From Acidobacteriota bacterium (GTDB lineage: Bacteria > Acidobacteriota > Holophagae > Holophagales > Holophagaceae), in contig JACPUT010000002.1 in assembly GCA_016192145.1 (NCBI GenBank), positions 558,001-622,000 on the forward strand: a stretch of 64,000 nucleotides of DNA, in the 5' to 3' direction. The position numbers and the translations under genes were made by a program. Shown in pieces: positions 41,099 to 63,184 of this stretch (its first letter is position 1; every line of letters starts with the position of its first letter). Under the pieces are notes generated by a model. That model ran no database searches and was not told the origin of the DNA. It saw only the letters and a list, made by a program, of their open reading frames with translations.

Positions 41099-41474
41099 GG
41101 CAAGGAATGGCTCTGGTCAGTGGACAACCATCGCCATCGCCATCTCTATCGTCCACACCAATCCTACCAAATAACAGTTTGATGGAGAGCTCGCCACTTA
41201 GGCGTAACCCACGGGTCGCAATTTTAGGGAGGGCTAGAAATCGCTAATATTTTTATTTTGGTAAGAGTTTAATGCTGAAAAATAGGTTAGTTAGCTATTG
41301 ACGTGGCTTTTTGGGGCGGTACCCTCGGAGTGTCTCAGCTGAGACTTTCGGAGGCCAGCATGTAGCCAGATCCATTCCAGGAAGAGAAGCGGATCAATTG
41401 ATCCGCCCCCTACAACCCCATTTCACTTGCGGCGCCCAGGGCTGGAATCCAATGCGCCGCAAGAAGGAGTCCTT
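41099..41474. other. Upstream region of the tns operon
   Basis: No gene. A+T-rich around 41240..41290, with a TTGACG box at 41298..41303 and a 14-bp palindrome GTCTCAGCTGAGAC at 41332..41345, candidate control elements for tnsA. A clear -10 box was not found. Confidence 0.45.
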
Positions 41475-44412: not shown

Positions 44413-45330
44413 ATGACTGAACAACTGCTTGAGAAAACGTACGAACATCTAGGAGAACTGGCCTCGCAAGTAATCGAGGCTGAACCAGAGGCCCGAAAGG
44501 CATTCATACGCCAAACGAGGTGGGTCGGGTACAGCGCTGCTCGCAAAGCCCTCGGCCGGATGGAAGAGATCCTTCAGGGACCTCGGGTAGATCGAATGGA
44601 ATGCATGCTCATCATTGGCGACACCAATAATGGGAAGACCCGTCTCATTAAACATTTCCTTGAGAAACACCCCCCGAAGGAGCGGGCGGACGGTGGCTCA
44701 ACGGAAAGCCCGGTTCTCTTCATTCAAGCTCCTCCATCGCCAGATGAGAAGCGCCTCTACGCATCGATTCTAAGTCGTCTCGGAAGCCCCGTGTCGGGGA
44801 ATCAATCCGCAGGGAGTCAGTACAGTGTCCTTGAGAAAGCGATTCGCGGGTCAAATCTCAAAATGCTCATCATCGATGAGATTCAGCACTTGGTTTGCGG
44901 TAGTACGAATAAGCATCGAGAGTGCATGACCGCTCTGAAATTCATCGCGAACGACCTGAGAATCTCCATCGTTGCAGCCGGGATTCGTACAGCACATTAC
45001 GCGATTGCGAGCTTCGACACCCAAATCGAGAATCGCTTCAAGGGGATCTTGCTACCTCGTTGGACCTACGGCGAAGAACTGACCAGACTCTTATTGAGTA
45101 TTGAGAAACTGCTTCCTTTGCGGGCCCCATCACATCTAGGAGATCCAAAATTGGCTCGCCTGATCGCGGAGCTAGGAGATGGAAAGATCGGAGAAATTTG
45201 GACGCTCCTGCGCCTCGCCGCGATTGAGGCGATAGACAGTGGCAAGGAATGTATCGACATGGATGGAATCAAATCGGTTGAGGGAATCGCCCCTGCACAT
45301 CGAAGAGCTCTGCTCCATGGAACCGATTGA
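44413..45330 (+). CDS. tnsC: TnsC/TniB-type AAA+ transposition regulator
   Basis: 305 residues. Walker A GDTNNGKT (69-76) and Walker B MLIIDEIQHL (D155/E156), sensor regions ISIVAAGI and a C-terminal lid. The length fits TniB rather than the longer Tn7 TnsC. It passes target choice from TniQ to TnsB. Overlaps the tniQ start by 14 bp. Confidence 0.92.
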   Translation: MTEQLLEKTYEHLGELASQVIEAEPEARKAFIRQTRWVGYSAARKALGRMEEILQGPRVDRMECMLIIGDTNNGKTRLIKHFLEKHPPKERADGGSTESPVLFIQAPPSPDEKRLYASILSRLGSPVSGNQSAGSQYSVLEKAIRGSNLKMLIIDEIQHLVCGSTNKHRECMTALKFIANDLRISIVAAGIRTAHYAIASFDTQIENRFKGILLPRWTYGEELTRLLLSIEKLLPLRAPSHLGDPKLARLIAELGDGKIGEIWTLLRLAAIEAIDSGKECIDMDGIKSVEGIAPAHRRALLHGTD

Positions 45331-46747
45331 GTCCATCTCAATCCAAGAGACGAGACCAGAGGGCCCCGTAGGGGCCCTCTGGCTTTTCCATCCCAAACCT
45401 GAGGTTGGTGAATCGCTCTTCTCTTGGGTGAGTCGAATCGCGGAATGTCATGGAGTAAGCCTAGAGTGCTTCTGCCGAGAGGTATGGCCGGGTGAGGACC
45501 TTTTGTTTAGTGACCTTGAGCGAAAGCCGCCGTCACAGGTCTTGGAGGCCCTGGAAGGCGGAACGGGCATTTCACGCGAACGCTTGCTGGAGATGTCTTT
45601 GGTTGGCCTCACAAAGCTGGTTCTAGGGGTTGAGCTCTCGACTAAGGGTTGGGTCCCATGGGTTGTTCCCGCCATGGCCCGACGCAAGGAGGAGTTTGGG
45701 CTTCAGTTTTGCCCGGATTGCCTGGCCATGGGGGACCCACCGGTATTCGACCTTTCATGGCGACTCGCCTTCGTGACCATATGCCCGATACACAACCGCC
45801 TGCTTGTAGACCAGTGCCCAAGATGCAAATTGGCGCTGAACCCGAGAAGGCCGGATAGGAAGAAGAGGGCGATAGACGACGCAGTCCCAACCTACATGTG
45901 CCACTACTGCGGGTGGGATTTGAGGAAGCGAGCTGGGGACCCAAAGAGCCAGAGGCCCATGCGAGGGGTGAAGTCACTTCAGGGGAGCCTTCTCGCTGCA
46001 GCAAGAAATGGGTGGTTCGAGTCTCGGTGGGGAGAGACGATCCATTCGATCCCATTCTTCAAAGGGCTACAGAGAATTCTTCGGCCCCTAGTCTCTAAAG
46101 GCGCGATCGGCCGTTTCCGTGGGGAGGCTGTCGGAGAGAGTGGGTTGATAGACCCATCAGATAGAATCCGGTCTGGTGCACGTGGGACGTTGTTCGAGCG
46201 TCAAGACGTGCTATGTCGCCACCAGGTTCTGGCACTTGTGAACTGGGTGCTCGACTCCTGGCCCGACCGATTTGTCTTGGCTTGCCAGCGATGTGGGGTG
46301 AGATGTGCGCGCCTGACGCAGGATTGCCATGAGGAGGCCCCGTACTGGATATGGAAGGTCGCTCATGAGCATCTTCGGTACTATCAATCGAGGTGGAGGC
46401 GTGAATTCCTACCTACGGGTTTGGTGGTTTCGTATCTTGCTTTGGGGGAAAGGATGACGAGCCCTGGCCTCGCACGAATTCGAGATCGGATTGTGTTTAC
46501 GCAGGAACATCCAGAGCTGTGGGATGACCCCTTCATGCTCGCTGCCGCGATGAGAGCAGCTGGACTGTATAGCCAAAAATCTGCGATTTCAGTCTTAGGG
46601 CAGCACTGTTCTTGGCTGATTGACGCTGTTCAAGCCACAAAATCTGCCGTTCAGCTCCCTGGGGGACTTGTCGCGGTGAACCTGAATGGGAAGGTGAAAA
46701 TCTTGAGGCGCGCCAGAAAGCTGACTTCCAATCCAACGGTGTACTAG
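45317..46747 (+). CDS. tniQ: TniQ/TnsD-family target-selection protein
   Basis: 476 residues from ATG 45317, inside the end of tnsC. N-terminal PEVGESLFSWVSRIAECHGV and a zinc-ribbon region with CPDC, CPIH, CPRCKL, CHYCGW. Such proteins pick the target; as no guide RNA system is present, this one is the best candidate for choosing comEA. The C-terminal half is unlike known domains and could bind DNA. Its early coding part contains a strong hairpin (45356..45382). Confidence 0.9.
   Translation: MEPIESISIQETRPEGPVGALWLFHPKPEVGESLFSWVSRIAECHGVSLECFCREVWPGEDLLFSDLERKPPSQVLEALEGGTGISRERLLEMSLVGLTKLVLGVELSTKGWVPWVVPAMARRKEEFGLQFCPDCLAMGDPPVFDLSWRLAFVTICPIHNRLLVDQCPRCKLALNPRRPDRKKRAIDDAVPTYMCHYCGWDLRKRAGDPKSQRPMRGVKSLQGSLLAAARNGWFESRWGETIHSIPFFKGLQRILRPLVSKGAIGRFRGEAVGESGLIDPSDRIRSGARGTLFERQDVLCRHQVLALVNWVLDSWPDRFVLACQRCGVRCARLTQDCHEEAPYWIWKVAHEHLRYYQSRWRREFLPTGLVVSYLALGERMTSPGLARIRDRIVFTQEHPELWDDPFMLAAAMRAAGLYSQKSAISVLGQHCSWLIDAVQATKSAVQLPGGLVAVNLNGKVKILRRARKLTSNPTVY
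45356..45382 (+). promoter_or_regulatory. Strong hairpin at the tnsC-tniQ junction
   Basis: 12-bp perfect stem, CCAGAGGGCCCC and its complement around a GTA loop, followed by CTTTTCC. It looks like a terminator but lies 40 bp inside the tniQ coding region, so it may reduce tniQ expression. Confidence 0.6.
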
Positions 46748-48609: not shown

Positions 48610-50007
48610 TTAAATATCCCTTTTAAGATGTTTAGTGCGTGTACGTTTGGTTGAGGTCTTTTCGTCAAAAAGGGCGGGTTGCTCAGAAATTCCTTTATTG
48701 ACACGCTTAAATTTCGAAGCAATGGAATTGATCTGGGATAACGCATTTTGAAGCTCTTCTAAGCGGTCATTCTCATTTGAGGTAGATTGGCTTTGGAATG
48801 GACGTTCTTGATTGTCATCGAGTATTCGCAACGGAATTGAAATTCCGGGAAGTAGAGCTAAGCGATAACCCCATTGGGAGAATCTAATCGATTCAGTAGT
48901 AGTGATTTTTAGTCGCTGGGTTTTTATCAAGAATTCAATCAAAGATAATTCCAATGACCCTCTATATGGAAAGGGGGTATGTTCTCTGATGTTCATAAGG
49001 AGTGATAAACCGAGAGAATTGAAAGTTGTTTCAATTTTATTATTTGGGTCAATTGCTGTAAACAGGATAAACCAGATAGCGGTTTTAGCTTCTTCAATCT
49101 TCCTAATGCCAATTTGCTCTAAGAAGGCAAAATTTCCTTTAGCTAACGATGCATACAGGTATCCAAAAATTGGAGATAGATCTTCGCTCCCATATGATCT
49201 AAACCCAGTATTCCGAACTAAATCCTCAAGAGATCTAAGGCGTTGTTCTTTTGTTCCAGCAGTCGAGCGATCTATGATTTCCCTTAATTCATCATATTCA
49301 AGGTTGGATACCTTTGAAAGAAACAAAAGTAGGTCTTCAAATCTTGTTGATGCTTCTATCAAATCCTTAATTGGATTATTTATCTTATGGTCAGTGCTGC
49401 GTTGGGGAAGTAGGTCATGAAAAGCATTCAATAAATCTTGTAAAAAAGTTTGGATTGGAGGAAGTGGCAGATTTGAAGATACCTTAACTGTCTCGAGAGC
49501 GTTAAGTGCGTACGTGATCTTTTGTTTAGAGTACCCAACTGTGTACCCGCGAAGGATCGTGTAGGCCAAAGTTCGTTGAGCTTGGCGTAAACTTGGGCTG
49601 AATTGAGAGTTTCGGGATTGGGTTGAGATTAACAGCTCACTAAAAATTAGTCCAAGGCCGATGCGAAATTCCGCCGGTTTTAATTCTTTTTGATCGAGGT
49701 GAATCCATTCAAGAGTTACATCATGTGGTTCAACAGCACAAATGTTTGTGAATTGAGGGATCGTCGAGACAAAGGTTGAGACCCACGCCAATAGATCTTC
49801 ATGCGCATCGGCCGATGGCGTTGAAATCACCAGCGGAAGTTCACTGATCGGATCCTTGATGTCGGGCCAAATTCCGTAGTATCTGGTCTTGTCGGACTCG
49901 ATTTCTTGTGCGACGTCCGTTGCAGACATTGCTCGCAACCCATCTGGAAGACAGGGGTTTTGCAAGAGCTTGAGTAGATCGTTCCGATCGAATGGGTGGA
50001 TCCTCAT
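48610..50007 (-). CDS. Unknown protein, third gene of kinase-helicase operon
   Basis: 465 residues, mainly helical. N-terminal MRIHPFDRNDLLKLLQNPCL, long helical stretches (LRSLEDLVRNTGFRSYG), and a basic C-terminus (KRTRTKHLKRDI). No catalytic motif or known family seen. It starts 12 bp after the helicase stop and is A+T-rich like its two partners and unlike the rest of the element. It could be the effector or DNA-binding part of the system. Confidence 0.75.
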   Translation of the reverse strand: MRIHPFDRNDLLKLLQNPCLPDGLRAMSATDVAQEIESDKTRYYGIWPDIKDPISELPLVISTPSADAHEDLLAWVSTFVSTIPQFTNICAVEPHDVTLEWIHLDQKELKPAEFRIGLGLIFSELLISTQSRNSQFSPSLRQAQRTLAYTILRGYTVGYSKQKITYALNALETVKVSSNLPLPPIQTFLQDLLNAFHDLLPQRSTDHKINNPIKDLIEASTRFEDLLLFLSKVSNLEYDELREIIDRSTAGTKEQRLRSLEDLVRNTGFRSYGSEDLSPIFGYLYASLAKGNFAFLEQIGIRKIEEAKTAIWFILFTAIDPNNKIETTFNSLGLSLLMNIREHTPFPYRGSLELSLIEFLIKTQRLKITTTESIRFSQWGYRLALLPGISIPLRILDDNQERPFQSQSTSNENDRLEELQNALSQINSIASKFKRVNKGISEQPALFDEKTSTKRTRTKHLKRDI

Positions 50008-50019
50008 TTTGGTCTGGCC

Positions 50020-51174
50020 TCAAAACAGATCTGCGAGCTGGGGGGGTGGGGTGTCCTCTGAGTCAAGGTCGAGGATTCCTTGATGCAAGTATCGCGGGAG
50101 CTCGGCTTCATGGTAGATGGTGAGAGATGTTTTTGCCCTAGTAATCGCTGTATAGGCGACATTTCTTTGAAGCTTCCCAAAATGACGAATCTCCTCGGCC
50201 GCTAGTAGGTGAACGGCACGAAATTCCATTCCTTTCGCAGAGTGAATAGTGGACAGTACAATTTGTTTATCTGGAGAGAATTCGCCATGGCCTTGGCGGC
50301 CATGATATATAATCTCTTCACCGTATTCTGTGCTATTTGCAAGATTCATTACAAACTCAGCCGAGTCATTGGTTGGGATTAGGATGCCGATTAATTCATC
50401 GGGGAAGGCCCTTCGTTGGAGGTTTATTGCTTCCATAGCCTTTGAAAACTGTAAGGCCAGGCCCCCTTGGACAAGGTTCACCGACGATGGGTTTTCCTCC
50501 TCATCGTAATTATTTCCAGGGAGCATGGGCTTATAGTCTTCTCGATTTTGTGCAATATTATCGGCTAACTTGGCGATGGAGTGGCCGTTTCGGAAATTAT
50601 GAACCAACTCAATTCGCTTGGGCGCTAATTCCCGTAGCGTACTAATTGGGTCCTCTGTTCTGTAAATTTTTTGACTAGAGTCTGCAGTTGCAAATATTTG
50701 TTTTGAAATCTTACCAAATATCTTTATTTCATCGGGTGTTAAATCATGAGCCTCATCGAGAAGGACACATTCAAAGAGGTTCGATAATTTATATTTATTT
50801 ATAACTTCAAATACTTGTTCAGTAAGTGCCTGCCGGCGTCCCATAAATGAGATATCGCCAGGCAAGTCCGGATAACTTTCATATTCATTTAGAAAATCCG
50901 TTTTCCATTTTTCAACTGTTGAGAAAAGTTCTGAATGAATTGAATATTGATTGATTCCAGTTTGTAAAAAATCGCATAATCCCTTGCCCATCATCATTAC
51001 GCGAATGTTCGTTTGTTTTGAAGTAATCAAAAATTTTGCCCTAAGGAGCAAGAGATTTGTTTTTCCAGAACCCGGAGGACCTGTAAGGAGTACGCTTTCT
51101 CCTAGGGGTAGCCTGGGAACCTGGCGCTGCTCTCCTTTGAGCTGCTTTTCGTTAGTCCACCAGATTCCATTCAC
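50020..51174 (-). CDS. Compact UvrD/Rep-like SF1 helicase
   Basis: 384 residues from GTG 51174 (AGGAG upstream). Walker A TGPPGSGKTN (31-40), Walker B CVLLDEAHDL, motif III ATADSSQKIY, IV HNFRNGHS, V VLSTIHSAKGMEF and VI AYTAITRAKTSL. All core motifs are present in a protein about half the length of UvrD, without large 1B/2B insertions. It overlaps the kinase stop by 4 bp. An unwinding or DNA-sensing role in a defence module is likely. Confidence 0.88.
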   Translation of the reverse strand: MNGIWWTNEKQLKGEQRQVPRLPLGESVLLTGPPGSGKTNLLLLRAKFLITSKQTNIRVMMMGKGLCDFLQTGINQYSIHSELFSTVEKWKTDFLNEYESYPDLPGDISFMGRRQALTEQVFEVINKYKLSNLFECVLLDEAHDLTPDEIKIFGKISKQIFATADSSQKIYRTEDPISTLRELAPKRIELVHNFRNGHSIAKLADNIAQNREDYKPMLPGNNYDEEENPSSVNLVQGGLALQFSKAMEAINLQRRAFPDELIGILIPTNDSAEFVMNLANSTEYGEEIIYHGRQGHGEFSPDKQIVLSTIHSAKGMEFRAVHLLAAEEIRHFGKLQRNVAYTAITRAKTSLTIYHEAELPRYLHQGILDLDSEDTPPPQLADLF

Positions 51175-52577
51175 GACACACTCCTATTTAGTAAATCAAC
51201 CAGATCCACCCATCCTTTAGATTCTGCAGTCATTATTCTTTCATCTGAAATGGCAAGGGACCAAATATTGATTAATGATCGCATGAAGGCTGTTTTGAAA
51301 AGACTAGCCTCAAAGTGACCTTTGTAGATAGTTGTCAAGGTAAGTTCACCCAAAAGAATCTTGACCTTTTGGTTATCTATCACCCCAAGTAGGGACCCCA
51401 CTGAGACATGAATTACGTTGAGCTCAATTCCGAGGAGTTCTACTCGGAGGAATATTCGAAGGTCGCCATCAAAGCCAATAGAAGGTGAGCCAGAAAATGA
51501 GAGCATCAATACATTGCTTGTGACGCTATTCTTAATTGTTTCAAAAATTGCAGGTGGTAAAAATTCTTCTTTGCTGATTTGGCTTCTCGTAATGGAATCA
51601 ATTTTTTCAACTGCCCCATTTAACCGATTTCTCATTAGGATCTCAGCGTTAACCCGGTTGTCACCCTCTGAGGTGAGGCGCGCTGAGATCTTTTTTAGGG
51701 CTCTCTCTGTATCATGATTTGGAGGTGCTAGCAGGAAGTCGTCCCACTTCACAATGTCAAGCCTTACCAATGGGTCCTTCTCTAGGCAGTTCTTCGTAAG
51801 GGCGATTAAATCACTTGATACATCATCGGCTATAACGCTAGGTTCCTCGTATAAAATAGCCTCGACTAGTCTTGGGTAAGGAGATCTATTATTAAATAAC
51901 GGCTGCCTCATTATCATGTCGTGAAGGACTCCACCGAGCTGATAAAAGGTAATAGCCCGCCATCCTTCAATTGTTTGCTGCTCGGTTCGTCGCAAAAACT
52001 CTGGTGATCCGTACCTCAAAGTACCGATGAAGTGCGGCTCTTGGGTGTCAGTCACGTTCCCAGCATCATGCGGGCGTATCACACCAAAATCCAGAAGAAC
52101 TAGTGTCTTTTCATCGGAAGTAATCATGATATTGCTTGGTTTAATATCTCGATGTGTGAAACCGTTTTTTTCCAAAAATAACGCGGCTTCTGCGAGTTGT
52201 GAAATTAGTGGTTTTATTTTTGCTCTTGCTAGAGTTGGAATTCTCTTTTCGAGTTCTGTCCCATCAATCAGTTCCATTTTTATGTAAAAAACTTGAAGAT
52301 CGTCCTCATAGCCAGCATCAAAAACCTGAATAAGGTTTGGATGACGTAGGTTCTTCAATTTCATCTCGCGCTGGATCCGCTCTTCCTGCACAGACCTTCC
52401 ATGTGCCTCTACTATGTCTTTGTCAAATATCTTTAATGCGTATGAGATCCCTGCTGGGTCCACTGCCCGAAATACAGCGGCCGATTTCCCGTTTCCGACC
52501 AATGACTGGATAGTCAGGTCCCGAAATGCCTTGCCTTGGAATCTATGCAACCACTCTGCAGCTAACGCCTGATCCAT
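51171..52577 (-). CDS. Ser/Thr protein kinase with a unique C-terminal domain
   Basis: 468 residues (AGGTG upstream of ATG 52577). Intact Hanks-type kinase: K49 (YALKIFDK), E71, catalytic loop HRDIKPSN (142-149) and DFG (163-165), activation segment ending GTLRYGSPE. The Gly-rich loop is atypical (VGNGKSAAV). Residues about 290-468 have no known domain. It heads a leftward three-gene A+T-rich operon. It probably senses or signals infection to its partner proteins. Confidence 0.88.
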   Translation of the reverse strand: MDQALAAEWLHRFQGKAFRDLTIQSLVGNGKSAAVFRAVDPAGISYALKIFDKDIVEAHGRSVQEERIQREMKLKNLRHPNLIQVFDAGYEDDLQVFYIKMELIDGTELEKRIPTLARAKIKPLISQLAEAALFLEKNGFTHRDIKPSNIMITSDEKTLVLLDFGVIRPHDAGNVTDTQEPHFIGTLRYGSPEFLRRTEQQTIEGWRAITFYQLGGVLHDMIMRQPLFNNRSPYPRLVEAILYEEPSVIADDVSSDLIALTKNCLEKDPLVRLDIVKWDDFLLAPPNHDTERALKKISARLTSEGDNRVNAEILMRNRLNGAVEKIDSITRSQISKEEFLPPAIFETIKNSVTSNVLMLSFSGSPSIGFDGDLRIFLRVELLGIELNVIHVSVGSLLGVIDNQKVKILLGELTLTTIYKGHFEASLFKTAFMRSLINIWSLAISDERIMTAESKGWVDLVDLLNRSVS

Positions 52578-52970
52578 TATTTCACCTGGGACAAGTGATT
52601 TCCCGCAGCCTTATTTCGCGGAGGCCTTATGTGCTGCGTCGTTGTCGGAAGTGGGGCTATGAATTTTGGCATCTGACTCGTACTCAGGTGTTGCTTGTCA
52701 TGTTTGTTTATTGCTTTGTGAAGGATGACCGACAACCTATTCCTTGGCGAGTGGATTTCCGATCAAACCTCAGGCCACGGGTGTGGCGCCTTCGTTCACT
52801 GGCCTGCCGGGACCGATCCCTTTTCGATGCCCGCCGGCTGAGGAAACCTAACCTGCCAACCTTGGGTATCGAACTTTCGATCCGAAACTTGAAGCCGGCT
52901 TCCCCTCAGACCGACTCCACAGGAAGGGCTAGCTCCTAAAAATTGAGTGCGAGACCCTTTGTGTAAATCC
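52578..52970. other. Non-coding region between kinase start and right end
   Basis: No convincing gene. It holds the promoter region of the kinase operon, though clear -35/-10 boxes were not picked out, and G+C-rich sequence around 52770..52930 that may be a relic of earlier cargo. Confidence 0.45.
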
Positions 52971-53030
52971 AAATATTGCAATTGAATCGCATAAACCATC
53001 TCGAATTCGCATTGTTAAATGACGTTAACA
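52971..53030. repeat. Right transposon end with TnsB-type sites
   Basis: Read leftward from 53030: TGTTAACGTCAT, then TGCGAATTC (starting at 53011) and TGCGATTCA (starting at 52991), i.e. the same first-site offset and 20-bp pitch as the left end, but with fewer sites. Confidence 0.87.
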
Positions 53031-53199
53031 GCGGAAGCAACACGGTGGCTTTCGGCGGCCGGAAGAAGTGATGCACGTGAAGGGCATCGGCGAGAAGGGC
53101 TACCAACGGATCAAGGCCTACCTGCGCGTGGCGGGTGCCGCCGCGCCGGCTTCAGGCTCCCCCAAGACACCCGCCGCCATTTCCGGCGCGAAGCGGTAG
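53031..53199 (+). pseudogene. comEA: ComEA-like protein, 3' part
   Basis: The first 5 bp are the right copy of the GCGGA duplication. From 53036 the frame reads QHGGFRRPEEVMHVKGIGEK, then the second helix-hairpin-helix (GYQRIKAYLRV) and an Ala/Pro tail to TAG 53197..53199. It has no start of its own. It continues the frame cut at 466. Confidence 0.92.
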
Positions 53200-53210
53200 G
53201 GGGGCCGACC

Positions 53211-53717
53211 ATGCTGCGCATCCCGGGAATCCCGTCCCACCGCCAGAAGGGAACCACCCTGGCCGAGGTCATGGCCGTCACGGGCATCCTCGGGGTGCTC
53301 GCGGCCGCGGGGGTCTCCACCACCCGCTTCAATGGGTGCGATCTCGCCGTGGCCCAGATGGAGTTGAAGGGCAGCCTGGATCAGGCCTTCAATGAAGCCC
53401 GGGCCCGGGGCCGCAACATCACCGTCTCCATGTCCAACGACAAGAAGATGGATGTGCTGCCCGTGCGCCTGCCCCGCACCATCCGGTTCGGCAAGCCCGC
53501 CCACATCCCCCTGCCGCCAGGTGTGGCGGCACCCAAGGTGGCCGCCAAGACCGGAGAGGCCCACCCCAGCATCACGGTGACGCCCCGCCGCACGGCCACG
53601 GCGGCGCTCTGGTTCCTGAACGATGGCCAGGAGGCGATCTGCATGCGCCTCAACGGCCATGGGAGCGTCCTGATGTACCGTTGGCGCGTGAGCCTCAACC
53701 GCTGGGTGAGGGTCTGA
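53211..53717 (+). CDS. Type IV pilin-like pseudopilin (GspH/FimT)
   Basis: 168 residues. Prepilin site KG-TTLAE with Glu5 and a hydrophobic helix (VMAVTGILGVLAAAG), then a beta-rich FimT/GspH-like domain. It starts 11 bp after the comEA stop and its stop overlaps the radC start, so comEA, this pilin and radC form a host operon. Minor pilins of this kind act in DNA uptake or secretion. Confidence 0.82.
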   Translation: MLRIPGIPSHRQKGTTLAEVMAVTGILGVLAAAGVSTTRFNGCDLAVAQMELKGSLDQAFNEARARGRNITVSMSNDKKMDVLPVRLPRTIRFGKPAHIPLPPGVAAPKVAAKTGEAHPSITVTPRRTATAALWFLNDGQEAICMRLNGHGSVLMYRWRVSLNRWVRV

Positions 53718-54292
53718 TGCGCATGCTCGATCTCTCGCCCGACCAGCGCCCCCGCGAACGCCTGATGGCGGGGCAGGGGGAATCCCTCTCGGATGCGGAA
53801 CTCCTGGCCCTGCTCTTGGGCAGTGGCACCCGCGGGGCCAATGCCGTGGAAACGGGGCAGGAGCTCCTGGGTGCCTGCGGCGGGCTCGCGGGCCTGTTCA
53901 AGCTCGGCTTTCCGGAGTGGACGGCCCTTCCCGGGGTGGGGCCCGCCCGGGCCGCCAAGCTCTGGGCCGCCCTGGAGGTGGCCCGCCGGGCCACCCGCGC
54001 CCAGGCGCGCCCCCGCATCACGAGCCCCAGGGCCGCCGGGGACTACCTCCTTCCGAAGGCCCAGGGGTGGACCGAGGAGCGCTTCGGACTCCTGGCCCTC
54101 AATGCCAAGGGGGACCTCCTGGCGGAGCGCATCCTCAGCCAGGGCACGGCCACCGCCACCCTCATCAGCCCCCGCGAGTTCTTCCGGGAGGCCCTCCGGT
54201 ACGGCGCCACCTCCGCCCTCGCCTGGCACAACCATCCCAGCGGGGACCCCACCCCCTCCCGGGAGGACATCCAACTCACCCGCCGGCTCCAG
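53717..54292 (+). pseudogene. radC: RadC homologue, truncated by a second transposon
   Basis: 192 codons kept: the N-terminal HhH part (LLALLLGSGTRGANAVETGQ, LPGVGPARAAKLWAAL) and the JAB/MPN core up to AWHNHPSGDPTPSREDIQLT-RRLQ. The last 30 or so residues, including the DHLV(I/L)G region, are lost at 54292. No 3' part is found in the rest of the window. ATG 53717 overlaps the pilin stop. Confidence 0.88.
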
Positions 54293-54327
54293 TGTCAATT
54301 CCACAAGCCAATGATAATTTCCACAAG
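54293..54327. repeat. Left end of the second transposon with repeated sites
   Basis: After TGT, two copies of a TTCCACAAG motif (54297..54307, AATTCCACAAG; 54316..54327, AATTTCCACAAG) with 20-bp pitch, the same phasing as TnsB sites but another sequence than in the first element. Confidence 0.75.
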
Positions 54328-54532
54328 TCGACGAGACTGGTCCGCCCTAGGAAATCAGAGGGTTAACGGGCGATGCAAGCAGCATTGGCCTCAAAACCGG
54401 GAATCCTAAGGAGCGCTCTAGCGCGCTTGGATCCGCATTGGAAGTGCCTTCGGGCGAGAAAGCAAAACGGGCGCAGATCCACTCTTGGAGCGGATCCGCG
54501 TCGGACACCATGCAACAAGCATGGAGGTCTTT

Positions 54533-55000
54533 ATGGCAAGCAGGAAATCACCGAGGTCGCTTCGGCCAGCGGTCAGCGAAGTCGCAAGTGTGGCCGCAGT
54601 GGCATCGGTCTTTGGTGAGCCGGAAATTGCGCCAAAGCCATTGGACGCGGATCTGCTCCGATTCCACCCTGATCAAATCCCTGTCCCAGAAGCTGACGAC
54701 TTGGCTGGAGCGCTGACACTGGCTCTAGGCATTGCCCTGTCCATTCACCAAGTTCCCCGCGACAAGGATGATTACTGGGCGTTATCGAGTGGGATTGCTT
54801 CGGTGCTCCTGCGGTTGGCGGAAGTTCATCCCGAGATGGCGATTAAGGCAATGGCCAGCGCCAGGGATGCATGCCAGGTGACTGGCCCTGGATCGAGGCA
54901 GGAGGGCCCCGGAAGGAACCTATTTGTCCCGGTCAACGTCAAGGTATGTTCGGTGCCTGGTTTTGGGGATCTGGTGGCCCGTACATATGGGGTGGACTGA
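54533..55000 (+). CDS. Unknown protein between transposon end and tniQ
   Basis: 155 residues (GGAGG before ATG 54533). Disordered start, then helical sequence (DDLAGALTLALGIALSIHQV, SGIASVLLRLAEVHPEMAIK). Convergent with tniQ, 6 bp apart. No family recognised. Confidence 0.5.
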   Translation: MASRKSPRSLRPAVSEVASVAAVASVFGEPEIAPKPLDADLLRFHPDQIPVPEADDLAGALTLALGIALSIHQVPRDKDDYWALSSGIASVLLRLAEVHPEMAIKAMASARDACQVTGPGSRQEGPGRNLFVPVNVKVCSVPGFGDLVARTYGVD

Positions 55001-55006
55001 CGGATC

Positions 55007-56575
55007 TTAGGCGACCTTCCCCAGTTTCGGTTTTGGCTTCCATCCATGACGCATCAGGAACCGGTACACCGCGGATTCGGTGATGGACTTCCCCGTGTGA
55101 TCACTGATTGCACGGCGAACTTCGCGCGCAGTGATCGGGATTCCGTTCCTTTCGCCTTCCCAGAATGCTTCCATGAGGCGCCCTTCTTCTTCGATGGACA
55201 TGAATGCACGCCCACGCGGGTGGTTGTAATCAAGGTCTTTGACCGCTGGGATGAATGGGATCCCGTGGATATTAGTCAGTGCTGCTGGATCGTTGGCCAT
55301 TGAAACCAGCTTGGGGAGCCCGGGCAGAATGTTGCTTCGCTGAGTTCCGGCGGAATAGAAACCCGCATCGCGCATTGCCAGCGCAAGTGCATCCAGATCC
55401 GATGTGAGATTTGAATTCCTTCGGATGAATTCGATCTTCCGGGCGAGGTCGCCCAACCGGGCGCTTTGGACGCGCTTCGCCAACCTTGCATAGGAATCCA
55501 CCGAGCGCTTTTGCTTGCCGGTGGCGGGGTCCCTCCATTGGGCGTATTCGACCTTCAGTTCCCCATCTGCGACCTTGGCTAGCCAGTAAGGCGTTTCGCC
55601 CCGTCGGTCTTGGTGAATGCAATTGGACCAAACGCGGGCCTGCTTGCAGACCCGGATGAACCGGATCGGCCATTCCTCCATCAGCCACGCCGTAAACCCC
55701 AAGAGTTCGGCCCTAGTCGCGGCGGGCAGGAATTCAAAGCTACGCCCCTTAGGCCATTGGCTGACCGGCAGCGGGACCGCGTGCCTACCTAAAACCCCAG
55801 TGATCGCTTGGTTCAACTTGTCGGCAGAAGCTTTCGCCCCCAGCATCTTGGTGATTTGGTGAATCCCATCGAACGCCAGGCGGGAATAGGTCATGCCATG
55901 GCCTTTGATATCCATGCACCCTGCTTCAAGCGCCTCCTCCATTCGGCCTTGGAGCTTAATGGATAAGCGGTCGAGGTGGGTTTCTCGCTTTGCGACCTTT
56001 AGTTCCCCTTTCGGGATGTCCCGAAAATCCATGCCGCACTTTCCACAAACCGTGAGCCAGTGGTTGGCAGGATCAGGCCGTGGCGAGGTTAGGTCAATGG
56101 GGTGTCCGCAGCTTGGGCAGGAGTCGATGAGTTGGATTCCATGCTTGGTGCAGGTGTTCACGAAGGCCAGCCGCCACTTGAGGCGGAAGTGGGGGGTTTT
56201 CCCGTGTTCATCAAGGCAGATGGGGCAGCACTGCTGGCCTCCTTCGGCTTCGGGGAGAGCCCAGCGCATCCTGCCCGGGAGCCCTTGGGAATTCAGGTGA
56301 TCATCAAGTCCTTCCAACGTAAGGGCGCGAAGGGCTTCGGGCGATTGCCGGGTCTTCGTTACCAGTACTTCCAACACCCATTCGGGGATTGATCTGTCCA
56401 AGGCCAGCTGCCAGACCCTTTTCCCTTCCCAACCCACTTTCAGCAGATCGTGAAAGCTGATTCCATTGGCCCCGGCGATCCGGTACAGCCATGAAATCAG
56501 TGACTCTCCCTTGACCGGGATCGGGTGGGCCGGCCAAGGACGGTCTGGGACTGGGGCGCGGTCGACCTTCGACAT
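55007..56575 (-). CDS. tniQ: TniQ/TnsD-family protein with C-terminal HTH
   Basis: 522 residues. N-terminal PVKGESLISWLYRIAGANGI and zinc-ribbon cysteines (CCPICL, CTKHG, CPSCGH, CGKCGMDF). The C-terminal 45 residues (AREVRRAISDHTGKSITESA then VYRFLMRHGWKPKP) look like a helix-turn-helix/winged helix of the IS630 type, an added DNA-binding unit that could direct insertion to radC. 2 bp after the tniB stop. Confidence 0.9.
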   Translation of the reverse strand: MSKVDRAPVPDRPWPAHPIPVKGESLISWLYRIAGANGISFHDLLKVGWEGKRVWQLALDRSIPEWVLEVLVTKTRQSPEALRALTLEGLDDHLNSQGLPGRMRWALPEAEGGQQCCPICLDEHGKTPHFRLKWRLAFVNTCTKHGIQLIDSCPSCGHPIDLTSPRPDPANHWLTVCGKCGMDFRDIPKGELKVAKRETHLDRLSIKLQGRMEEALEAGCMDIKGHGMTYSRLAFDGIHQITKMLGAKASADKLNQAITGVLGRHAVPLPVSQWPKGRSFEFLPAATRAELLGFTAWLMEEWPIRFIRVCKQARVWSNCIHQDRRGETPYWLAKVADGELKVEYAQWRDPATGKQKRSVDSYARLAKRVQSARLGDLARKIEFIRRNSNLTSDLDALALAMRDAGFYSAGTQRSNILPGLPKLVSMANDPAALTNIHGIPFIPAVKDLDYNHPRGRAFMSIEEEGRLMEAFWEGERNGIPITAREVRRAISDHTGKSITESAVYRFLMRHGWKPKPKLGKVA

Positions 56576-56577
56576 GG

Positions 56578-57513
56578 TTAGGCCGCCGGAATGGCGATGG
56601 GCGAAGGGGTCTCGGGATCAGGAAGGTCGGCCGTGGCGAGATTGCTTGGGTCGTAACCACATCCCCCAATCACCTTCGCGTCGATGCGTTCCCTTTTTGT
56701 CCTAATGGCGTGGATCGTGGCCCGCCGCATCAGCTTCGTCACCCGGCCCGTTCGACCACTGCACAGGTTGTGGATCAGCCCCGCCAGTTCAGGCTCGACG
56801 AGCCCCGATGGGTGCTTTAAGGGGAGGACTGATTCCAGGCCCGCAAGGAAACCCTGGAATTGTTCGTTGGGTTCCCAAAGGGGCAGTTCCCATGGCTCAA
56901 ACCGATCGATCATCTGCTCGTCAATCAAAATGGCATTTTGCGCCTTAGGCACACCGGCACCCACAATGGACACCCCAAGGGTGTTGGTGAGATTCTTGAG
57001 GACGTTCAGGAACTGATGATGGTTCTTGCTACCTCCCGCGATGGAATGGTGGACTTCATCCACACAAAGAACTTTCAGTCCGATGGTCTGGACTACCTTC
57101 TCCAAGGTGGATTCCATCTGTCGGATGGAATAGGTTTCCCTGAAGGGCGCATTGATGGCCCGAAGAATGTTCGCCAGAAACCGCGCTTCGTGGGGTGTAG
57201 GCGGGGCAACGACATAGGCTACCGGGATGGTCGATCCACACCCATCGGACCGTTCGACGGACGGGTGCATCATGGCCACCCGCTTTAGAACCCTGGTCTT
57301 TCCATGGTTCGCGGGAGCGACTAGGAGCATGCATTCGGGCCTGGCAACGTAAGGGGATTCGACTAGTTCCTTTACCCGATCCAGCACCCTTAGCGCAGTG
57401 GGATAGGGGATCCATCGGTCTTCCTGGACGAATTGGATTCGGGTTTCGTCGTCTTGGGCCATGAGCGGCTGGGCAAGCCCGCCAAGATGGGAATATGTGA
57501 GGGGGTCCTTCAT
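56578..57513 (-). CDS. tniB: TniB-type AAA+ ATPase
   Basis: 311 residues from ATG 57513 (AAGGAG upstream); an upstream TTG start is less likely. Walker A APANHGKT (66-73), Walker B VLCVDEVHH, and C-terminal regulatory helices. Same role as tnsC of the first element; sequence clearly different. Confidence 0.92.
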   Translation of the reverse strand: MKDPLTYSHLGGLAQPLMAQDDETRIQFVQEDRWIPYPTALRVLDRVKELVESPYVARPECMLLVAPANHGKTRVLKRVAMMHPSVERSDGCGSTIPVAYVVAPPTPHEARFLANILRAINAPFRETYSIRQMESTLEKVVQTIGLKVLCVDEVHHSIAGGSKNHHQFLNVLKNLTNTLGVSIVGAGVPKAQNAILIDEQMIDRFEPWELPLWEPNEQFQGFLAGLESVLPLKHPSGLVEPELAGLIHNLCSGRTGRVTKLMRRATIHAIRTKRERIDAKVIGGCGYDPSNLATADLPDPETPSPIAIPAA

Positions 57514-57544
57514 GTAAGTACTCCTTGGCGTCCGATTGACGCAA

Positions 57545-60361
57545 TCATTCGATCCCAACGCAGGGGAGGATCTCGCCCGCGGGTTTCAGGGATTCCAAGG
57601 CCTTGGGTCGCGCGGCGGGCTTAGAGATCGCCTTGGGGTGTTTCACGGCTCGTTTCTGATCGCGGTTCCGGCGAACTTCATTGCGACGTGCCTGAGAGGA
57701 CTTTTCCCGCGCTGCGGCTTCGATCTTTCGATTCGCCAAGATGGCGGCGAAGCGAATCTCTTCATTCTTTTCATCGCTGCAGTTCTTTCGCTTCAGTTTC
57801 TGGGTAGCCTTCCATTCCCAGAGGGTGATCCCCTTGGGATGAGCGGTATTCCGCATGGGGATCACCAGGTAGTTGTTGGTTTTCGGGTCCAACAGGTACA
57901 CCTGAGAAATGTCTGCAGGGTCCCGGCGGATGACAAAGTCACGCTTTTCCTTCGGATTTTTGGGGCACTTGGCGTTGTAGAAGGCCACGAGGATGTCGTC
58001 GTGGTACTGCAGGTCATCAATCTGGACTCCGTATGAGGGATTGACCTTCCGTTTGAAGAAGGGCAGGAAATCCATCCGCGTGCGGGGGGTATCCGGAAGG
58101 ATGTCGGGGAGGCCGCATGGCGGCGTGTTTTCATCACCGTTGATTCCCCGCTCCCAACGTTCAAGGGGAGTCTCGCCATCCAATTTGTCGTGGGGCCGGT
58201 TGTGGTAATTGCCTACGATCAGATTGGCGGTCCATTGCTCAAGCTCTTCGATTGTGAGGTAGGCATACTTGCGCGAATTGTAGTCACCGCGTTCCGCGAT
58301 GGACGCGAAGGTCGTTCCGTCCAATTCGCGCAAAGCTATGCTAAGGGTGCCCATGAAGCGTTCGATGTGGGCCCCATACCGGGGCTTCTTCACCGCGCGC
58401 CATTCGATGTTGAACCCGTAATCTTGTCCAAGGGCGATGAAGAAATCGCCTCGGAATTCCTTGGCGTTGTCGCCATGGATCGAACCGGGGACCCCCCAAC
58501 ACGGCCAATCGGCCTTGCATTGATATTCCGCAAGCAACTTTTCCTTCGTCATGAAGGCCTTGTACAAGCACGAGCCCAATGAATCGTTGCCAGGGGCTTC
58601 GTAGGAAATGTGGAACCCCACCACCATTCGGCTGTAGACGTCGATCATCACGGTGATCCAAGCGCGGCCGAGGTGCTTGCGGGTTTCCGGATCCACGAGG
58701 ATGACGTTCATCTTCGTGTGGTCGATCTGGACATAGGCGAGAGGGTAGTTAGCCCCAGGGAATTCGCCTTTCACGACCCGGAAAGCCTGATTCGCCGCCG
58801 CCTTCCCCTCACGCCTACGAATCCGGGTTTCATCGTCGACCCACTTGATCCGATTCCGGATGGTGTTTGTGGATGGCCATGGCTTGGGAAGGTTCTGTTT
58901 TTTGCATTCATCGTGAAACCAACGGGCAGTAGCCGCTGGGGTCGGCTTTTTTCGCGACAGGAATACGCGGTCGATCGCTTCAGCAATGAGGGATTCGAAT
59001 CTCTGAACGGTTTGATCACTATGGTGGTCGGCGACGCCTTTGCTTTTGCTTAGGCGGGGCTTGCCACGACCACCTCCGGATTTGCCTGGGGCAAGGGCGG
59101 TCGTCAGTTCACCGCAGTCGGCAAACCTACGCAGCAACCGGTAAATCGTAGTGATGCTGGTGTCGAGTTCCTTTGCGGCCGCAGCGACCATGGCATTGTC
59201 CCGTTGGACCCCCAGCAGGGGGCGAAGGATCGCGGCCCTCTGGATAGCCTTCTTCGCGTCTTCCTCGTCCAGTTCCATAAAATGTGGGAGCGTCGGGGCG
59301 AGGGGTTCCGTGGGAACGTAGGGTTTGAGGGACGAGATGCTGACCCGTTCCTGCATTCCGTTTGCTTGGTACTGAACACGGACTTCTTTTGAACCGCAGA
59401 CGCGTTGGATGTGAGCTCGCTTGCCATCCACTACGACCTCGAAGCCCGGTTTGAGACGGAGCCGCGGGGTAGAAACGGATGCAATCACCACTTCTTTGGG
59501 TGGCATCGGCACGGCTCGGGTTCGCAGCGGTGGTCCCGCAGGCCCCCAGTTGAACCTCAGGTCGGGTTCGGTGGCATGGTGAATCACTGAAGCGTTGGTC
59601 AAGGGGATCGCAAGGTCCGTCCAGACTTGGCGCGTCCCGATCAGGTGCCACAGATTGTGGACGATCTGGGGGTGGAATTCTTTGTCCTTGCAGACCATGC
59701 CCATGAGTTGGTCAACCGTGCATTCGCGTTTTCGAAGCAAGGTGTCCAACATCGCCATCCCCCATTGGGGGGCCAATCCTCGACGGAGGTGCGGACGCAG
59801 GAATTTGAGGTTGTCCAGGAATCCATCGACCCGAATTTCCTGTTCCGTAAGGAGCCTAAACGTCCAACCTTTATGGGCTGCGTAACGGCGGGCGGCGTGG
59901 AAGCGTGCCTTGAACTTGGCGAAGTCCCTGATGAGGATGGCGCGGGGCTTCACTTCCACAAGCCACGGGCGGGGGGTAATGCCAGTGAAGCGATCTGGCT
60001 TGAAGGTGATGAGGAGGTCGGGGGTGTAAACCCGGGCCCGGGGCTTCCCCTTCTGGGTAGCCGTGTAGGTGATGGAAACGGGTTGTCCCACGAAGGACTT
60101 CACCGTGGGGTCCATCTCCGCCAGGATCATGGCGTCACGTTCGAGGGTGCTTTCGAACCCTTGGGAGAATTTTCCCTTCAGGGTGTAAAGCATTCCGGTG
60201 ACGCTGTTGTGGTTCTTCGGGATCTTCCGGACTCCACGTTCAAGCTCACCCGGGAGGGACAGCAGCACCGTCTTCCGCTGGGGGCGTACGTGGGTGGATT
60301 GTAGGGGGCTGGGGTCCGCGACCTGGTGGTCGGCGCCCCGGGTGGAAACTTGGAAGCTCAT
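57545..60361 (-). CDS. tnsAB: TnsA-TnsB fusion transposase
   Basis: 938 residues from ATG 60361 (GAGG upstream). The N-terminal 200 residues are TnsA-like with E74 (STLERD), D115 (YTPDLLI) and E136/K138 (LVEVKP). The rest is TnsB-like with D547 (QIDHTKMNV), D631 (HGDNAKEF) and E667 (AHIERF). The single chain performs both strand cleavages, allowing cut-and-paste movement. Unlike the separate tnsA/tnsB of the first element. Confidence 0.93.
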   Translation of the reverse strand: MSFQVSTRGADHQVADPSPLQSTHVRPQRKTVLLSLPGELERGVRKIPKNHNSVTGMLYTLKGKFSQGFESTLERDAMILAEMDPTVKSFVGQPVSITYTATQKGKPRARVYTPDLLITFKPDRFTGITPRPWLVEVKPRAILIRDFAKFKARFHAARRYAAHKGWTFRLLTEQEIRVDGFLDNLKFLRPHLRRGLAPQWGMAMLDTLLRKRECTVDQLMGMVCKDKEFHPQIVHNLWHLIGTRQVWTDLAIPLTNASVIHHATEPDLRFNWGPAGPPLRTRAVPMPPKEVVIASVSTPRLRLKPGFEVVVDGKRAHIQRVCGSKEVRVQYQANGMQERVSISSLKPYVPTEPLAPTLPHFMELDEEDAKKAIQRAAILRPLLGVQRDNAMVAAAAKELDTSITTIYRLLRRFADCGELTTALAPGKSGGGRGKPRLSKSKGVADHHSDQTVQRFESLIAEAIDRVFLSRKKPTPAATARWFHDECKKQNLPKPWPSTNTIRNRIKWVDDETRIRRREGKAAANQAFRVVKGEFPGANYPLAYVQIDHTKMNVILVDPETRKHLGRAWITVMIDVYSRMVVGFHISYEAPGNDSLGSCLYKAFMTKEKLLAEYQCKADWPCWGVPGSIHGDNAKEFRGDFFIALGQDYGFNIEWRAVKKPRYGAHIERFMGTLSIALRELDGTTFASIAERGDYNSRKYAYLTIEELEQWTANLIVGNYHNRPHDKLDGETPLERWERGINGDENTPPCGLPDILPDTPRTRMDFLPFFKRKVNPSYGVQIDDLQYHDDILVAFYNAKCPKNPKEKRDFVIRRDPADISQVYLLDPKTNNYLVIPMRNTAHPKGITLWEWKATQKLKRKNCSDEKNEEIRFAAILANRKIEAAAREKSSQARRNEVRRNRDQKRAVKHPKAISKPAARPKALESLKPAGEILPCVGIE

Positions 60362-60713
60362 GGCGACCTCGTGTCTTCGGCGACACAAGAAACGTGGCAT
60401 GGCCCTCACAAGTGCTCGAATTCTGAGAATTTAGGAAATAAGAAGCTCGGTTTCCCAGAAATGGCTGTCAACCCCCCTACGAATAATTTTGAACAGACGA
60501 CCTTTGGAAAGGCCGCTAGAAGATGCGAAATAGCCCTGAATTGGACTTCTGGGGCAGATGATTTAACACCACCACACCACTTCTCAAAGGCGCCTACTGC
60601 GTCGATTTTGAAATCGAGTCTCTAAGCCACCCCCAAGGCGTTGTGCTGGTTCCGCCAGGTTCAACGCCTTCAATAGGGGCCGGGTAGCGCCTTCAGTGGT
60701 AGGACTGTTGGTC
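60362..60713. other. Non-coding region between tnsAB and HEPN gene
   Basis: No gene. It probably contains the divergent promoters of tnsAB and the HEPN gene; A+T-rich around 60420..60500. No copy of the TTCCACAAG end motif was seen here. Confidence 0.45.
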
Positions 60714-61322
60714 ATGCGAAATGACATCCGCGGCAGCTTCGAAGCCAACCTAAAACGGGTCGAACACCTGGTTGGCCTGTACCAGATGCTCACCACCGGT
60801 GGCCCTGGCCGTCGTCCCGTCCATTCGACAGACATCCTCCGGGCGGCCACGGTACTTCTGCACGCCTCCTTCGAAGAGCTGCTACGAAGGCTCATCGTTC
60901 TGAAGTACCCGAATGCGGACGAAGGCGTGTTGAACGATGTACCGCTCGCTGGAATGAGCACCACTTCGCGGCCAGAGAAGTTCTTTCTTGGGAAGCTTGT
61001 CGCTTACCGGGGCAAGTCCGTTGATGAAGTCATCCAGTTATCTGTCGCCCAACACGTGAACACGTTCAGCGCCTCCAGCGTGAACGAGGTTTGTGGGGTG
61101 CTGACAAGGCTAAAATTCGATATCACCTACGTTCAGAATGAGCTTCCCGCGTTGGCCGATCTCATTTCTCGTAGGCACGCCATCGTGCATCAGGCAGATC
61201 GGAACGAACGCGAAGGAAGTGGCCACCATCGCACGCGATCTCTGAGCGAAGAGACCGTCCTTGAATGGCACAAGGCTGTGTGGACCCTTGGGACCATCGC
61301 GATTGACCACCTGGAGCCCTGA
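60714..61322 (+). CDS. HEPN-domain protein, probable ribonuclease-like
   Basis: 202 residues from ATG 60714. All-helical; the RRHAIVHQAD stretch fits the Rx4-6H HEPN motif, and HASFEELLRRLIVLKY fits the first helix. Such RiboL-PSP-HEPN-like proteins cut RNA in defence and toxin systems. No obvious partner next to it except the RHH-HTH gene 790 bp away. Confidence 0.65.
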   Translation: MRNDIRGSFEANLKRVEHLVGLYQMLTTGGPGRRPVHSTDILRAATVLLHASFEELLRRLIVLKYPNADEGVLNDVPLAGMSTTSRPEKFFLGKLVAYRGKSVDEVIQLSVAQHVNTFSASSVNEVCGVLTRLKFDITYVQNELPALADLISRRHAIVHQADRNEREGSGHHRTRSLSEETVLEWHKAVWTLGTIAIDHLEP

Positions 61323-61355
61323 CTGCAAATGGCAGCCAATTGGGCGCAGGAGGGG

Positions 61356-61655
61356 CTAGTGCGGGTGGTGTTTCTTGGTCCGCTTTGAACCTGGACCACC
61401 ACCAGTAGCGGGCCCTGCCAGCTTGATTGAACCAGGATTTGGGATGGGCAGCACCCCACGCTTCGTCTTTTGGGCACTGTCCCTATAGGAAGCCGCGGTT
61501 GCCTCCAAGTTGAATCGTTCCGCCTGGTCGGCGTACCAAAGGCAGGCTCGGGCTACCTGAGCACGATTCAATCCCTCGCGTTCGACAAATTCACAGAACA
61601 GGCGGTGGGCGCCTTCAATTGAATTTGGTTCTGGGAAGCTGACCGCCTTCGTCAT
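61356..61655 (-). CDS. Unknown small protein downstream of RHH-HTH gene
   Basis: 99 residues from ATG 61655. Helical centre (AHRLFCEFVEREGLNRAQVA, LWYADQAERFNLEATAASY) and a basic Gly/Lys/His tail. Probably co-transcribed with the RHH-HTH gene ending at 61693. No family recognised. Confidence 0.5.
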   Translation of the reverse strand: MTKAVSFPEPNSIEGAHRLFCEFVEREGLNRAQVARACLWYADQAERFNLEATAASYRDSAQKTKRGVLPIPNPGSIKLAGPATGGGPGSKRTKKHHPH

Positions 61656-61692
61656 GGTTTCTGATCCTACCCACGAAGAACCTCCGGGGGGC

Positions 61693-62112
61693 TTAGCCCT
61701 TCTTGGATCGAAGCTTTGAAAGGGCCTTGGACAAGTCCTTCTGCTTCCCATCAGGAATGCCCCGGTGGCCAAGCCACAAGGAGATTGTGGGCTGACTGAT
61801 CCCCATCAGTCCAGCTAGTTCGGATTGCTTGGCCCCGATGTCGGAGAGTTCGGCCCGAACCATTTCGGACGTCCAAACATCGCCACGGTTCGGCAGCTTC
61901 GGCGCCTTGCTTCCTTGGGTAGCGCCCTTCAAACCAAGTTGAGCCCATGCCGATTCGGCCATCGGCAGGCAGGCTTTGATCATCTCCTCGACCACCGCGC
62001 TTTCCGATCGCTTCTGCCGTGCCGCTAGCACCCGAATGCGTTCGCTGAGCTTCGGATCGATCCGAAGCGTCATCCGGTCGGCCTTTTTTGGTGAGTGGAG
62101 GGGGCGCCCCAT
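61693..62112 (-). CDS. Regulator with RHH N-terminus and HTH C-terminus
   Basis: 139 residues (AAGGA before ATG 62112). Ribbon-helix-helix-like MTLRIDPKLSERIRVLAARQ, and a C-terminal XRE-like ELAGLMGISQPTISLWLGHR. The combination suggests a repressor that uses the palindrome at 62190..62215. Confidence 0.65.
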   Translation of the reverse strand: MGRPLHSPKKADRMTLRIDPKLSERIRVLAARQKRSESAVVEEMIKACLPMAESAWAQLGLKGATQGSKAPKLPNRGDVWTSEMVRAELSDIGAKQSELAGLMGISQPTISLWLGHRGIPDGKQKDLSKALSKLRSKKG

Positions 62113-62189
62113 GAATTACGTCCTTCCGTCGTTATGCAGGCGCCGAGGGACTTGGGTCAACAAGCAAAGTTAATGTTTTCAATAATTTG

Positions 62190-62215
62190 CGTTTTGACGG
62201 ATTTGCGTCAAAACG
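62190..62215. promoter_or_regulatory. Candidate operator of the RHH-HTH regulator
   Basis: CGTTTTGAC and GTCAAAACG in inverted orientation, 8 bp apart, in the gap between divergent genes at 62112 and 62276. Its size and place fit an autoregulatory site. Confidence 0.5.
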
Positions 62216-62275
62216 AAATGCAAATTAGCATTGGCACAGATTCATCTCTGCCTGGACCTACGTTTGGAGATTCCC

Positions 62276-62899
62276 ATGCCTGTTTCTCGCTTCCCCCTTC
62301 TCCCCACCCTCGTCCTGACGATGGGGGCCATTTTGAACTGCAAACCGGCAGGCGATCCGGTCGCGGCCAAGGGCGACAAGGTCCAGGCGATCTTCGCTGA
62401 ATTCATTCAAAGGAAGTACGAACTCATCCGCGCAGCGCGGACGGAGCTGAAAAGCGATCCGGATGTCGCCAGGATCCTGTCGTACAAGACGATCGAAGGT
62501 GTTGAGCCCTTGGATGCCCGGGATGCCGAACTGGCCCGCGCCCAATCCGAGGAAGAAGCCAATCTGAAAATCTGGCGGACGAACCTGACCAAGGGCGCTG
62601 AAGTCATCCAGAAACTGAATGCGTCAGCAAAGGACAAGTCCAAAGGCATGGCCGATTACGTTCGGCGGAAGTCCATTGGCGACGCGAATATGAAATTCTT
62701 CGGCATTCTGAACGAAGAACGGAATGCGGATCAGTGGCGGGCGAAGCGCATCGCGCGGTTCGAGCAGGACGCTGCCAGCGATCCCGGGAACGTATTCGGG
62801 AATGCGTCGTTGACCGCCCTGCGTGCCACGCGGGATTACCGCGCTGATCTACAGAAACTGGCTGAAGCCCAGTTCCAAAAGATCCAAGACCTGTTTTAG
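62276..62899 (+). CDS. Exported, possibly lipid-anchored, helical protein
   Basis: 207 residues (TTGGAG before ATG 62276). Hydrophobic start FPLLPTLVLTMGAILNC: Cys after ILN is a poor lipobox but possible. The rest is charged and helical (ARAQSEEEANLKIWRTNLTK). No family recognised. Confidence 0.55.
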   Translation: MPVSRFPLLPTLVLTMGAILNCKPAGDPVAAKGDKVQAIFAEFIQRKYELIRAARTELKSDPDVARILSYKTIEGVEPLDARDAELARAQSEEEANLKIWRTNLTKGAEVIQKLNASAKDKSKGMADYVRRKSIGDANMKFFGILNEERNADQWRAKRIARFEQDAASDPGNVFGNASLTALRATRDYRADLQKLAEAQFQKIQDLF

Positions 62900-63184
62900 G
62901 GCTGATCGTGACGCGGTTCCACTTCGTCCCTGCGGAATGGGCTTGGCGAAGACTCACCCATGGGCGACTGCAACCATTCCGAAAAACGCGATCTCGCCCA
63001 CCCCTTTGCCTGATGCGGTTCTCACCGAATAGTGCGGCGAAGGAACGATTCCCCTTTGCTGTGTCCACACCTTCGTTCTTTCCAGGAAGGAATCCACTGT
63101 CGCCCTGCGGCCCATCTTGGTGGCCCTTCCGATCCACTGGCGATTCCCCAAGCCGCTGCAGGGCCTTTCCGAAATGGTGCTTCT

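Follow-up and report, generated by a model that had tools for sequence, protein, structure and literature searches.

Background

Tn7 (TnsABCD) lands downstream of glmS, at attTn7, where its TnsD reads codons of this gene, and glmS is left whole. Insertion inside a gene is known from Tn6022/AbaR, a Tn7-like island that sits at a conserved motif within the transformation gene comM, inactivates it and carries an extra selector, TnsF (Orf3), besides TnsABC and TniQ. For comM it has been argued that blocked transformation protects the island (PMC11472951, PMC10293859). Other Tn7-like elements (with sites at yhiN, parE, tRNA genes, glmS and comM) resemble the elements described below in having one TniQ/TnsD lineage per attachment site (PMC11406308). 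Site-specific insertion into radC beside a conserved motif is likewise a property of the Tn554 family (Tn6188, Tn558; PMC3788773), but these elements use unrelated enzymes, tyrosine recombinases, and make no target duplication.

Here we describe two Tn7-like elements that split comEA and radC, apparently two landing sites of Tn7-like elements that were not reported before. Neither gene was found among the attachment sites tabulated in the available part of PMC11406308 or is mentioned in the main text of PMC10293859 and PMC8649781, and no report of either as a Tn7-like target was found in the open-access literature, on which basis their newness is provisional. In common with Tn7, the elements have a TniQ of TnsD length, a target site duplication of 5 bp, TG...CA ends in which TnsB-type sites are repeated and, to judge from the sequence, a probable recognition site in the codons of a conserved motif that lies tens of bp away from the point of insertion. 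Unlike Tn7, they insert inside the gene and break it, and unlike Tn6022/AbaR they are found in comEA and radC and not in comM, with a long TniQ alone as the probable selector and no TnsF among the genes that were identified. Tn7-like elements are thereby again seen to dock in genes linked to the uptake of foreign DNA. Otherwise comM was the only competence-related gene for which we found a record of attachment by Tn7-like elements. Two more sites, probably chosen by a TniQ lineage of another phylum and situated in an operon to which a core uptake gene belongs, make purposeful targeting of transformation genes a testable idea.

Two Tn7-like elements in one host locus

The window, i.e. the whole stretch of 64,000 bp that was analysed, corresponds to positions 558001-622000 of contig C1 of genome G000 (3.8 Mb in 19 contigs), which its relatives, among them Geothrix limicola, Holophaga and MAGs of the family, identify as a member of the Holophagaceae. 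The preliminary description had the order comEA, pilin, radC cut twice by Tn7-like elements, and we indeed found both junctions with their 5-bp duplications. The host DNA between the two element ends lies within positions 53031-54327; this interval is flanked by two ends as described, but the left end of the first element (element A) is located 52 kb further upstream. The 5' part of comEA (274..466, plus strand) encodes a signal peptide and the first helix-hairpin-helix (HhH), matches amino acids 1-66 of ComEA in relatives with an intact gene and ends with the duplicated GCGGA, whereas the 3' part (53031..53199, plus strand) opens with the same 5 bp and encodes the second HhH (amino acids 62-118). 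An intact pilin-like ORF follows (53211..53717, plus strand), with a prepilin-type N terminus (KGTTLAEV...) and no Pfam match, and then the 5' part of radC (53717..54292, plus strand; amino acids 1-192, Pfam RadC), of which the final 5 bp, TCCAG, are the second target duplication. The remainder of radC (amino acids 182-226 of the joined query) was found on contig C16 of the same genome, beside the far end of the second element (element B). ComEA is encoded by a core DNA-uptake gene; we know of no established role of radC as a transformation gene.

Element A spans 52,564 bp (467-53030) and splits comEA, with TGGCGGA followed by TGAAAACGTCAGTTCAGAATGCGAAT at the left junction and ...GACGTTAACA followed by GCGGAAGCAAC at the right one, and it is from the sequences at these two junctions that the span and the duplication, GCGGA at both ends, follow. 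Its left end (467..560, plus strand) starts with TGAAAACGTC and carries the TnsB-type motif TGCGAAT at offsets 19, 59 and 79, and its right end (52970..53030, minus strand; TGTTAACGTC...) carries TGCGAAT at offset 19 and TGCGATT at offset 39. The ends are of the TG...CA type, with the repeated motifs about 20 bp apart. TGCGAAT also occupies offset 19 in the element of Geothrix limicola and in that of genome G368, there at the tns end, and in all six ends of the family to which element A belongs (clade A, see below) the first copy of a TGCGAAT-type motif is at this offset. All four expected genes were identified by Pfam and lie on the plus strand: tnsA (41427..42245; Tn7_TnsA-like_N), tnsB (42529..44400; Mu-transpos_C), tnsC (44413..45330; TniB, 1.3e-58) and tniQ/tnsD (45239..46747; TniQ, 502 aa, clade A on the tree), the product of which is the probable selector of comEA. 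The cargo comprises two RND/Cus-type efflux operons, a P-type ATPase and a CopZ-like protein (8052..33139; Pfam), a Wadjet-like operon with MksE/JetB and JetC- and JetD-like genes (34181..39795, plus strand; Pfam MksE, with weak PADLOC matches to JetC/JetD at E ~1e-4) and, on the minus strand, genes for a protein of unknown function, a UvrD-like helicase and a Ser/Thr kinase (48610..52577).

Element B, the second Tn7-like element, starts at 54293 with TGTCAATTCCACAAG and splits radC after position 54292. The motif TTCCACAAG is found at offsets 6 and 26 of this end (54293..54335, plus strand); the motifs at the ends of both elements, TGCGAAT in element A and this one in element B, are as they had been claimed. 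The tns-proximal half of element B fills the window to its end (54293..64000) and runs off contig C1. The far end was found on C16 as ...TAGAAATGACA followed by TCCAG, adjoining the 3' part of radC and with copies of a TTCTACTAG-type motif, such that the duplication TCCAG is present at both ends, one on each contig. As C1 ends at 622816, the element measures at least 10,524 + 7,602 bp (at least 18.1 kb), with its middle unassembled. On the minus strand it carries tniQ/tnsD (55007..56575; 522 aa, Pfam TniQ at 9.2e-23 and a C-terminal HTH, HTH_33; clade B, the probable selector of radC), tnsC (56578..57558; TniB, 4.2e-52) and a gene of 954 codons (57545..60409) in which TnsA-like_N and Mu-transpos_C occur in one ORF, i.e. 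a TnsAB fusion. The two elements had been described as having unlike tns genes, which is true of the layout (TnsA and TnsB separate in element A, fused in element B), but they belong to sister families and are not unrelated, the TniQs being 31% and the TnsB parts 32% identical.

Contigs C1 (window coordinates 64216-64816) and C3 (L008:2-601) both end inside copies of one gene, with 96% identical proteins, so that the break in the assembly may be due to a repeat located in element B or close to it. A gene for a XerC/D-like integrase is located at the end of C16 (82415-83455). The distribution of element B over two contigs could raise the suspicion of an assembly artefact or of chimeric contigs. 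We consider this hardly credible, given that each element lies between perfect 5-bp duplications (which for element B are on two different contigs), that the split halves add up to a normal gene and that the same junctions recur in independent genomes, including the assembly of Geothrix limicola strain Red804.

Conservation of the association between TniQ family and target gene

All 77 available Holophagaceae genomes were scanned with the TniQ profile and for host ComEA and RadC, which yielded 17 TniQ proteins. Strong relatives of the two TniQs were confined to genomes of the same family among 396 genomes of the phylum, with the one exception of G278, a genome of another family that encodes a relative with 30% identity to the TniQ of element A. 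In a maximum-likelihood tree of the 17 proteins, clades A and B were separate and sisters, with moderate support for clade A (81/92) and high support for clade B (95/94). Clade A contains the TniQs of element A, of G368 and of Geothrix limicola (G242, tniQ2), all three located in elements in comEA, and clade B contains those of element B, G281 and G437, from three genera and all three associated with radC, although the G437 element is visible at one end only and its TniQ gene sits on another contig.

The counts for the target genes, read by eye from the result tables and including several genomes that are fragmented MAGs, were as follows. An intact comEA was present in 61 of the 77 genomes, while it was split by an element in three (G000, G242 and G368), fused by a deletion in one (G428) and not found in 12. 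For radC, 57 genomes had an intact gene, four a gene split by an element (G000, G281, G437 and G242) and one a partly deleted gene (G428), with two more cut by contig ends and 13 in which it was not found. The site was empty in G001, a relative from the same genus, and in most other genomes. In several well-covered genomes of the family, e.g. G304, G375 and G011, comEC was present and both comEA and radC were not found. A clade A TniQ and an element-split comEA were found in the same three genomes and in no others (hypergeometric ~2e-5), and the same holds for a clade B TniQ and a radC split by a Tn7-like element (~3e-5). Only three independent insertions per family enter into this correlation.

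Eight further TniQs form the other main clade. None of these is located in comEA or radC, and except in G000 the genomes that carry them have both genes intact. One belongs to a third Tn7-like element of G000 (L008:9566-15330, contig C3) that adjoins tRNA-Leu(CAA). A shared target nadE was considered for this third clade and rejected, since the G000 member abuts the tRNA-Leu gene and the other members are without nadE in the stretches examined. The remaining proteins, G242 tniQ1, G427a and G427b, have long branches and no firm placement. The first of these lies in tandem with tniQ2 in the comEA element of Geothrix limicola (L091:13804-16304), where the two genes encode 370 and 464 aa; the shorter one may serve a second target pathway.

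Because clade A is found exclusively in comEA and clade B exclusively in radC, insertion is non-random and the TniQ family predicts the target gene. The comparison of tniQ family with target gene in relatives, as proposed in the preliminary description, had this clear outcome, and the random spread over many genes that would speak against it was not seen in the 77 genomes. Outside the family, no fragment of comEA or radC was seen up to 10 kb from distant TniQs (Proteobacteria, Bacteroidota and elsewhere; 23-39% identity), whose element ends may lie further out, and the neighbouring ORFs included no recognisable target. The TniQs in plasmid records were all distant, and their matches fell short of 80% of the query.

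Insertion sites and targeting

Clade B elements were found at the same radC nucleotide in three genera. TCCAG is duplicated at both ends in G000 and in G281, in elements of at least 18 kb and of 60,174 bp, respectively, and the insertion point is 42-66 bp past the JAMM-motif codons (HNHPSGDP), which in both genomes are on the side towards which tniQ points. Clade A insertions are within ~17 bp of one another, with the duplications GCGGA, GCAAG and GCGCA. Those of G000 and G242 are 2 bp apart, with the codons of the second HhH 30-60 bp away on the tniQ side, whereas the element of G368 (L099:1-3203, contig C129) has the opposite orientation and is located 15-17 bp upstream of the other two. Given this difference in orientation and position, recognition of comEA is not identical across clade A, which suggests that the diverged TniQ of G368 reads the same gene differently.

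Very probably, then, these are two sister Tn7-like families of which the TnsD-like TniQs home to comEA (family A) and to radC (family B). The long TniQ of clade A would direct its element into comEA and that of clade B into radC, two neighbouring, conserved and apparently dispensable host genes. Each would bind within the gene at the codons of a conserved motif, which in comEA are the HhH repeats and in radC is JAMM, and recruit TnsC and TnsA/B for insertion a few tens of bp away with a 5-bp duplication. The insertion falls inside the target gene and breaks it. The TniQs match solved TniQ and TnsD chains by sequence, but AlphaFold predictions for six of them were too poor to use (mean pLDDT 51) and DNA binding is therefore put forward from knowledge of the family. 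The elements are presumably still active today. As two diverged sister selectors with short, mapped and differing sites, they should help to explain how DNA is read by proteins of the TnsD type.

Some CRISPR-associated transposons (CASTs) home to comM by means of a guide RNA (PMC11406308), and the element of Geothrix limicola has two tandem tniQ genes. Homing by a guide that encodes the target is nevertheless very improbable here. Neither a cas effector nor a target-matching guide was found in element A or the sequenced parts of element B: no cas gene was present among the ORFs examined, and no target shared a longer match with its element than shuffled sequences did. Short-spaced direct repeats as in a CRISPR array were absent from element A, and the length of the TniQs (456-559 aa) is TnsD-like.

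Other lesions in radC and comEA

The locus had also been considered as a possible hotspot. A passive hotspot would be accessible and dispensable DNA, open to any mobile element. In Geothrix limicola, which has a clade A element in comEA, radC is split at another position than in clade B, near amino acid 156, by an unrelated 14.5-kb island (L092:5064-19610, equal to C9:65064-79610) with three consecutive tyrosine recombinase genes and a CBASS system (patatin, DncV-like cyclase, E1/E2, JAB). Around this island no clear target duplication was found. Its three recombinases have no relative at the second radC copies, themselves incomplete, of G423, G214 and G426. In the literature, radC is a site for Tn554-like elements (Tn6188, Tn558; PMC3788773), phage phi105 (PMC3764409) and the RIT element RIT6 (PMC3414803). 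The notion of a hotspot holds to the extent that radC is also hit by such unrelated elements, but as regards the Tn7-like elements, comEA and radC are each reserved for a single TniQ family. Knowing the family, one can predict the gene and, in the case of radC, even the nucleotide; in the 77 genomes radC was free of clade A elements and comEA of clade B elements, and elements with other TniQs leave both genes untouched. A passive hotspot is accordingly an unlikely explanation.

In G428 (L250; C251:17116-17560) a deletion between a short shared sequence (GAGCGCATC) has removed most of both genes, so that the beginning of comEA continues in frame into radC at about codon 139; this genome is a MAG, and an assembly error is possible.

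Breakage of target genes and transformation

Loss of comEA should stop transformation, and otherwise recombination with uninserted DNA could delete the island. It is possible, although we would put it forward only tentatively, that the elements evolved to target this locus since breaking comEA, and perhaps radC, stops transformation; this would be an extra layer on homing by TniQ and no alternative to it. That comEA is a core DNA-uptake gene speaks for this. A full-length comEC ORF was retained in all three genomes with a split comEA (789, 778 and 830 aa), and it is for this reason that the uptake pathway looks recently interrupted. Both genes are broken in G000 and in G242, by different means, and parts of both are gone in G428. 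The comM islands offer a parallel, as a Tn7-like island that breaks a transformation gene (PMC11472951, PMC10293859). On the other hand, according to PMC3788773 radC is non-essential and its function unclear, and any gene that is conserved and dispensable makes a good landing site, irrespective of what it does. The overlap between comEA and radC lesions has p ~0.01 (0.009) with G000 and 0.10 without it, and their co-occurrence is suggestive only.

For comEA, selection of breakage because it blocks transformation, and a possible benefit of disruption to the element, are plausible in view of comM. For radC, the simple argument of a conserved, dispensable and easily recognised landing site fits better, as Tn554-like elements, phi105, RIT6 and the island of Geothrix limicola use this gene as well. 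A still wider reading, also rather doubtful, is that two sister selectors arose from a single TniQ lineage and came to use different genes of one competence-linked operon, comEA and radC, where both can be present in a single cell, in convergence with the targeting of comM, and that transposons repeatedly evolve a shut-off of DNA uptake or of the steps that follow it for their own persistence. The inserted and empty relatives, including the named species Geothrix limicola, are natural experiments.

A separate lesion was seen in G281, a genome with a relative of element B in radC. Its comEC ORF (L245:6845-8032, contig C40) is only 396 aa long, with an in-frame internal deletion that joins the Competence domain to the beta-lactamase-like domain.
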